A DNA stretch of 64,000 nt, taken from the NCBI RefSeq assembly GCF_013149785.1, contig NZ_JABEZU010000003.1:186001-250000 (forward strand). The letters are read 5' to 3'. Each line of letters begins with the position of its first letter. Position 1 is the first letter of the stretch. Of this stretch, positions 2,412-3,543 are shown one piece after another. The position numbers and the translations under genes were made by a program. This DNA is from Isoptericola halotolerans. GTDB lineage: Bacteria > Actinomycetota > Actinomycetes > Actinomycetales > Cellulomonadaceae. Under the pieces are notes generated by a model. That model was not told the DNA's origin and made no database searches. It saw nothing but the letters and a program-made list of their open reading frames with translations.

Positions 2412-2420
2412 ATGGCGCAC

Positions 2421-2470
2421 GATCAATGCCTGGGCCTTGTCCAATTGTCATCAATACTCTAGGCTTGATC
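2421..2470 (+). promoter_or_regulatory. Inverted repeat enclosing the promoter of the SatD-like gene
   Basis: GATCAATGCCT (2421-2431) and AGGCTTGATC (2461-2470) are complementary over 10 bases with one extra T in the left arm. Between them lie a CAATTG palindrome (2442-2447), two copies of TTGTC (2437-2441, 2445-2449) and the -10 box TACTCT (2455-2460). The stretch is far less GC-rich than its surroundings. The geometry suits an operator bound by a dimeric or looping repressor; the HTH at the end of the SatD-like protein is an obvious candidate. Confidence 0.5.
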
Positions 2471-2471
2471 C

Positions 2472-3167
2472 ATGATCGTCTTGACGATTGACCAGAAGTC
2501 GAGCACGACGCGCGGGGATCTCGTGCCCGCGCTGCTCGGGCGCCTCCAGGCCCGGGGCGCGACAGGCGACGCGGCGCGGGGACTCGTGCGCCCCTTCGAA
2601 CGCACCGTCGGCGACGAGGTCCAGGGCGTCCTGGCGGCCGACGACGACGGTGCACGCCTGGCGGTCCAGCTGATCGGCGACGTCCTGCGCGACGGCGGAT
2701 GGTCGGTCGGGGTGGGAGTCGGCGGCGTGGACGAACCGTTGCCCGCCACCTCACGCGCCGCGGCCGGGCCCGCGTTCGTCAGGGCGCGGGCGGCCGTCGA
2801 GGAGGCGAAGGGCCGAGGCAGCGCGGTGCCCCTCGCCGTCGTCGGCCCACCGGATGAGCCGGCGGCGACGATCGCCGGCGACGCCCAGGCACTGCTCCGG
2901 CTCCTGGGCGCACTCGCGGCGCGGCGTTCCGCCGCGGGATGGGAGGCGATCGATACCCTCGGCGAGCACGGTGGGGTCGACGCCCCGCAACGCGCGACCG
3001 CGGCACGTCTCGCGATCAGCGAGCAGGCCGTGAGCCAACGTCTGCGGACGGCGCTGTGGGCGGAGGAGGTGGCAGCCCGGCCGCTCGCCGCACGCCTGCT
3101 GCGGGCCGCGGACGCGGCCGCGACGGCCGACGACGGCCGGGCCGGCGAGAACGACGACGAGGAGTGA
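2472..3167 (+). CDS. SatD-like protein with C-terminal helix-turn-helix
   Basis: 231 residues. The N-terminal part (about 1-125) carries DQKSS, RPFERTVGDEVQG and VGVGVGGV followed by AAGPAFVRAR, the pattern I associate with the SatD family, whose biochemical role is not known to me. GDE..G followed by a VGVG strand also resembles the palm fold of class III cyclases and GGDEF proteins; that likeness is my inference. Residues about 170-210 (QRATAARLAISEQAVSQRL) look like a helix-turn-helix. The gene starts 12 nt after its -10 box and is followed after 4 nt by a membrane protein, with which it probably forms an operon. Function unknown; a sensor-regulator is a possibility. Confidence 0.6.
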   Translation: MIVLTIDQKSSTTRGDLVPALLGRLQARGATGDAARGLVRPFERTVGDEVQGVLAADDDGARLAVQLIGDVLRDGGWSVGVGVGGVDEPLPATSRAAAGPAFVRARAAVEEAKGRGSAVPLAVVGPPDEPAATIAGDAQALLRLLGALAARRSAAGWEAIDTLGEHGGVDAPQRATAARLAISEQAVSQRLRTALWAEEVAARPLAARLLRAADAAATADDGRAGENDDEE

Positions 3168-3171
3168 GACC

Positions 3172-3543
3172 GTGGCGGATGTCCTGGCGGTGACCGGTGT
3201 GTCGGTGGCGGCGCTCGCCCTGAGCGTCGGTCTCGGCGCATGGTTGATACCGCTCCTGCTGCGCCACGCCGAGTCCGGCCCCGGCGCCCGGGCGGAGGCG
3301 CTGGCGGTGCTCGGCAACGGCACCTGGATCGGTCTGCTCGAACGGCTGGCCATCACCGGGACGATCCTCGTCGGCCACCCCGAGGGGGTCGCGGTGGTCG
3401 TGGCGGTCAAGGCGCTCGGCCGGCTGCCCGAGCTGCGGGAGCACCCGGTCGCCGGGGAACGGTTCGTCGTCGGGACCCTCGCCTCGCTGGTGTGGGCCGC
3501 CGCCGCCGGCCTGGCGGGGCACGCCGTCCTCGACGCGCTGTAG
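3172..3543 (+). CDS. Small membrane protein paired with SatD-like gene
   Basis: 123 residues starting at GTG, 4 nt after the SatD-like stop, with GAGTGAG as a weak ribosome site. About three hydrophobic segments are visible (residues about 5-29, 55-75, 98-118). The middle contains WIGLLERLAITG and VVAVKALGRLPEL, followed by ERFVVGTLASLVWA; these recall the C-terminal half of the DUF3307-type membrane proteins that accompany satD in other bacteria, though the N-terminal half of that family is missing here. Its stop codon TAG forms part of the TAGTAT box that probably serves efp. Confidence 0.6.
   Translation: MADVLAVTGVSVAALALSVGLGAWLIPLLLRHAESGPGARAEALAVLGNGTWIGLLERLAITGTILVGHPEGVAVVVAVKALGRLPELREHPVAGERFVVGTLASLVWAAAAGLAGHAVLDAL

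Follow-up and report, generated by a model that had tools for sequence, protein, structure and literature searches.

Our analysis suggests, at a probability that we place at about 75%, that a SatD-like protein of Isoptericola halotolerans and a small membrane protein encoded directly behind it constitute a one-component autoregulatory module, in which the SatD-like protein would act as repressor of its own promoter. In the window, the entire stretch of 64,000 nucleotides that was analysed and to which all coordinates refer, the gene of the 231-residue SatD-like protein (2472–3167, plus strand), assigned by a structure model, a profile match to SatD members and matches to HTH domains, follows aroQ (1950–2411) and precedes the gene of a membrane protein of 123 residues and five helices (3172–3543, plus strand), which is defined by its structure model, a profile match and the gene order, and efp (from 3629). 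The stop codon of the satD-like gene and the GTG start of the membrane gene are separated by four nucleotides, the arrangement that had been described in the original prediction. Upstream of aroQ, a long open reading frame on the minus strand (419–1996) resembles by eye a FAD-linked oxidase, and a pyrimidine gene cluster and nusB are found, equally by eye, 3' of efp.

The promoter of the satD-like gene carries two predicted palindromic operators, op1 (2423–2440, TCAAT-N8-CTTGT) and, 28 bp after it, op2 (2451–2468, TCAAT-N8-CTTGA), whose register is kept in relatives. Their aligned upstream regions define a general unit of two xCAAG-N8-CTTGx palindromes placed 28 bp apart, with half-sites that alternate at 14-bp intervals across the array. 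As judged from conserved promoter positions, TTGTCC (2437–2442, plus strand) is the probable -35 hexamer, located 17 nucleotides before the probable -10 hexamer TAGGCT (2460–2465, plus strand). Among 94 promoters, the TTG of the former is found in 96–99%, whereas the second and sixth letters of the latter are A and T, respectively, in 100% and its first letter is T in 78%. Op1 shares its right arm with the TTG (2437–2439), and op2 encloses the -10 hexamer. Since this hexamer precedes the ATG by only 12 nucleotides, the transcript is probably leaderless. A weak third copy, op0 (2395–2412, ACAAG-N8-CTAGA), is found 28 bp upstream of op1 and shows three mismatches in the genome scan; it is doubtful and possibly a product of chance, because its bases also encode the C-terminus of AroQ. 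A CTTG half-site at the same place upstream of op1 is conserved in other genera. The array also reframes the 10-bp inverted repeat with one bulged base that had been proposed to surround the promoter. Its arms, GATCAATGCCT (2421–2431) and AGGCTTGATC (2461–2470), are indeed complementary except for one bulged T, but they come from different palindromes, the left one from op1 and the right one from op2, and do not form the relevant unit. The single dyad was thus rejected as operator, since the alignment of upstream regions in relatives assigns its arms to two separate operators.

The spacing of the array is pronounced. In 191 related promoters, the mean score of the tandem palindrome amounts to 18.2 at a spacing of 28 compared to 10.9 in shuffled promoters, which preserved single-base composition only, and all other spacings from 22 to 36 score about 11–12, with a maximum of 12.3. 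The 28-bp array exceeds the 99% shuffle threshold in 153 of 191 non-identical relatives, a count that, because related promoters are not independent, describes conservation and not a probability. The expectation that the repeat would be conserved upstream of homologues is thus borne out for the op1–op2 array. A scan of the 3.97 Mb genome has revealed a single occurrence of this array, at the promoter of the satD-like gene itself, and consequently no genome-wide regulon, which fits a dedicated self-regulator. In the same genome, the frequency of single palindromes at one mismatch does not exceed that of a backwards control (46 versus 112 per strand). Among other SatD-like genes, three of family f6 (L183, L186 and L196), which are second or lone copies in their genomes, and also L030 lack both the downstream membrane partner and the tandem operators. 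Conversely, L199, L202, L206 and L207 have kept the operators next to no recognisable partner, which counts against the reading as an operon module. The genome of L206 contains a second SatD-family gene about 1 kb upstream.

The assignment of the SatD-like protein as the factor that recognises the array relies on the relation between the operator and a residue of its HTH domain. Lineages differ in the base that opens the half-site, which may be T, A or G, and all four half-sites switch together. This base can be predicted in 164 of 165 cases from the identity of residue 184, with which the recognition helix begins, glutamine accompanying A (74 of 75), arginine G (19 of 19) and any other residue T (71 of 71, one being a gap). 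The lone discordant sequence (L179) runs through the HTH in a wrong frame. Of the 1.40 bits of information in the operator, residue 184 accounts for 1.39 and ranks first of 231 columns, followed by residue 174, which opens the HTH helix in front of the recognition helix. The operator base has changed four times on a tree calculated without the HTH, and each change coincides with changes at both positions. These four switches are too few for a paired test to reach significance, and we thus place weight on the exactness of the match, the location of the residue in the recognition helix and a nested reversal, where the only T-type operator in an A-type clade of about 46 sequences belongs to the only protein without Gln 184 (L096). 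The base-residue classes were set after the first 94 sequences had been seen, and the later sequences are partly independent of this choice. An initial test contained two switches, and extension to 252 sequences increased their number to four. Looser operator calls in an intermediate set gave seven changes, and the stricter calls (165 sequences) were used. One protein with Arg 184 beside a site that by eye resembles the T-type (L193) failed the operator call and is located outside the 165. The described correspondence suggests that the SatD-like protein very probably binds its own promoter. Autoregulation, as a conclusion from comparative sequence data, is thus well supported, in line with the control of its own operon that had been proposed in the original prediction.

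The protein itself combines a palm-like domain (approximately residues 1–125), a helical middle part, an HTH domain (approximately 172–193) and a long C-terminal helix (196–230), in a structure model of high confidence (pLDDT 96, pTM 0.91). In a fold search, class III adenylyl cyclases, together with a single GGDEF domain, made up the first 11 PDB matches, which agrees with the palm-type fold that had been anticipated, although these matches are weak (E 0.05–0.17, TM-scores 0.22–0.41). Comparison of profiles relates this group to class III cyclases with an E-value of 0.012, and canonical SatD with 0.005, collinear over 109 columns. These values may be compared to 0.0007 for the accepted remote relationship between GGDEF domains and cyclases, and to 0.2–0.7 for reversed controls. 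Direct profile similarity to GGDEF domains was rejected, since its E-value of 0.058 is barely better than that of reversed controls. The N-terminal domain is thus likely to adopt a palm fold of the cyclase/GGDEF kind, as backed by the fold search and weakly by profiles. A sequence search of the PDB with the SatD-like protein returned matches to HTH domains only, and the Pfam models of class III cyclases and GGDEF domains did not recognise it. The C-terminal HTH is confirmed by profile matches and the structure model, and it is found, as noted before, in the same protein as the motifs GDEVQG and VGVGVG.

The protein scores 19.1 bits against the Pfam model of SatD (PF16264), below its cut-off of 29, whereas other members of the same SatD-like alignment reach an E-value of 5.4e-10, and an hhalign comparison with members of the Pfam family yields a probability of 99.3 and an E-value of 3.6e-20 over 109 columns. 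The combination of a sub-threshold score with a strong profile match defines a divergent sister group of SatD and not a member at the Pfam level. The protein aligns with canonical, Fusobacterium and haloarchaeal SatD proteins in an N-terminal Asp, a Ser and the motifs GDE-x-Q, GxGxG and AR. In 191 sequences of the group, Asp 7, Arg 44, Asp 48, Glu 49 and Arg 106 are conserved in 96–99.5%, which suggests that these near-invariant residues form a functional site. Asp 7 (96%) and Asp 48 (98%) align with the two metal-binding aspartates of class III cyclases and would, together with Glu 49 (99.5%), constitute a putative metal site. The asparagine and arginine of class III enzymes that stabilise the transition state are, as judged by eye, out of register in alignments, with Arg 106 (99.5%) located nearby.

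The membrane protein is predicted as a five-helix structure with a pLDDT of 95, for which a fold search gave no credible match in the PDB. In 395 genomes of Actinomycetes, its gene is found directly downstream and on the same strand at 78 of 91 places with a SatD-like gene. At the profile level, the membrane protein corresponds to the C-terminal part of DUF3307 proteins that are encoded beside canonical SatD in several lineages, including haloarchaea (E 1e-10 to 1e-17). The Pfam model of DUF3307 (PF11750) does not match the 123-residue partner, which shares only the region C-terminal to this model. Related pairs recur in other bacteria and in archaea. In Fusobacterium, the gene behind SatD encodes a membrane protein that shares this C-terminal part, and in two haloarchaeal plasmids a DUF3307 gene follows SatD with a four-nucleotide overlap. 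Upstream of position 2974 of these haloarchaeal records (L316 and L317), which are near-identical, alternating GTTCGG/CCGAAC half-sites recur with a period of about 29 bp. A SatD gene and its membrane partner also reside on a conjugative Arthrobacter plasmid (L313:2983-4493). An Aerococcus plasmid (L315:2585-5709) encodes a distant SatD homologue with a degenerate palm that has lost the GD motif, next to a DUF975 membrane gene downstream and ribonuclease and barstar genes upstream. A link to phages was rejected, as a tblastn search of 50,697 phage records with a canonical SatD or a DUF3307 partner gave no match, and a fold comparison no strong viral match. The distribution in bacteria and archaea raises the possibility of a widespread ancient module of SatD and DUF3307-type proteins, in which the palm domain would bind or make a nucleotide signal in an autorepressor that sets the level or activity of the partner, a generalisation that we regard as tentative.

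In the mechanism that we favour for Isoptericola, the SatD-like protein would bind op1 and op2 via its C-terminal HTH and the occupied operators would block access of RNA polymerase, thus repressing both genes of the operon, satD and that of the membrane protein. The palm-like domain may serve as a sensor whose ligand, probably a nucleotide or a metal-nucleotide complex, would relieve repression and thereby increase the amount of the membrane protein as the effector of the system. The direction of regulation, the type of ligand and any role of the membrane protein are features that we infer, as is the combination of nucleotide sensing with tuning by the membrane protein that had been put forward originally. 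Repression is the most likely outcome since both operators cover promoter elements, and binding over the -35 and -10 regions usually represses. Activation of the operon by a SatD-like protein bound to the array would be compatible with a sequence that does not reveal the direction of regulation, but we consider it improbable in light of the position of op2 over the -10 and the overlap of op1 with the -35 hexamer. Even less probable, to a degree that makes it remote, is the assignment of the repeats to a different regulator such as an HspR-type heat-shock repressor, with SatD being merely a target gene. A heat-shock repressor of this kind binds CTTGAGT-N7-ACTCAAG, and most T-type relatives show a similar arrangement, CTTGA-N10-TCAAG, when the sequence is read from op1 into op2; the promoter of a target gene can also contain conserved sites. 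Such a regulator would, however, not account for operator bases that switch between lineages exactly with residue 184 of SatD, for an array that is unique in the genome and for several partner-less paralogues (L183, L186 and L196) that have no such sites in front of them.

Two further explanations concern the function of the pair rather than the occupancy of the promoter. SatD might be an enzyme that makes a nucleotide signal for which the membrane protein serves as receptor, with the HTH only setting the level of SatD. The near-invariance of acidic residues that recall the two-metal centre found in cyclases and GGDEF domains, the leading rank of cyclases in the fold search and the preserved proximity of both genes would all be accommodated by such a scheme. 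It is nevertheless unlikely in view of the catalytic asparagine and arginine of class III enzymes, which by eye are out of register, the absence of a recognisable known nucleotide receptor in the partner and the loss of the GD motif in the Aerococcus homologue. Similarly unlikely, yet to be taken as a serious rival, is a role of SatD as a guard that holds a harmful membrane protein off in a manner resembling toxin-antitoxin systems and that matters only where the partner is present. The strict pairing concomitant with tight self-regulation and the location of one pair on a conjugative plasmid are consistent with this role, and so is satD of Streptococcus pyogenes, which is reported to be essential in transposon screens and yet accessory, being carried by only about 71% of strains (PMC11323703). 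In contrast, the near-universal chromosomal conservation in Isoptericola is unlike that of a mobile toxin pair.

Among the described features, SatD and DUF3307 are already known as named families whose adjacency is visible in public annotation, and the pair in the window is a divergent form of the combination of SatD with DUF3307-type proteins, which is annotated elsewhere without a function. As far as checked, the array, the code relating residue 184 to the operator base and the divergent group with its short partner are new. SatD is a widely annotated name for which we have found no biochemical role in the open-access literature, and neither did we find there a description of a mechanism for SatD or its partner, although earlier work may exist. 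The array, the code and the conserved partner make the DNA target, the contact residue and the controlled gene cheaply testable. Should a nucleotide prove to be the ligand of the palm domain, the protein would represent a distinct type of sensor-repressor common to bacteria and archaea, which could account for the essentiality of satD in some streptococci despite its patchy carriage.

The properties of the pair can be related to several known systems. The name SatD originates from the sat operon of Streptococcus mutans, which, as cited in PMC11323703, is linked to acid tolerance, a function that should not be transferred to the Isoptericola gene. Members of the SatD family (PF16264) share the homologous palm-like domain, the C-terminal HTH and the downstream membrane gene, and some canonical members also contain repeats near 28 bp apart, whereas their start motif is Asp-Ile instead of Asp-Gln and the following loop is shorter in the protein studied here. 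The partner resembles the C-terminal part of DUF3307 proteins (PF11750) but lacks the N-terminal region that is covered by the Pfam model. The SatD-like protein resembles class III cyclases and GGDEF domains in the predicted order of fold elements and has the GD motif, although the full active site of class III cyclases is, by eye, not in register. In its general organisation, the module would correspond to one-component autorepressors, where a ligand-type domain is combined with an HTH, the operator covers the own promoter and a partner is part of the operon, but it differs from these in its palm-like sensing domain, the C-terminal location of the HTH and the presence of at least two operators in a 28-bp register.
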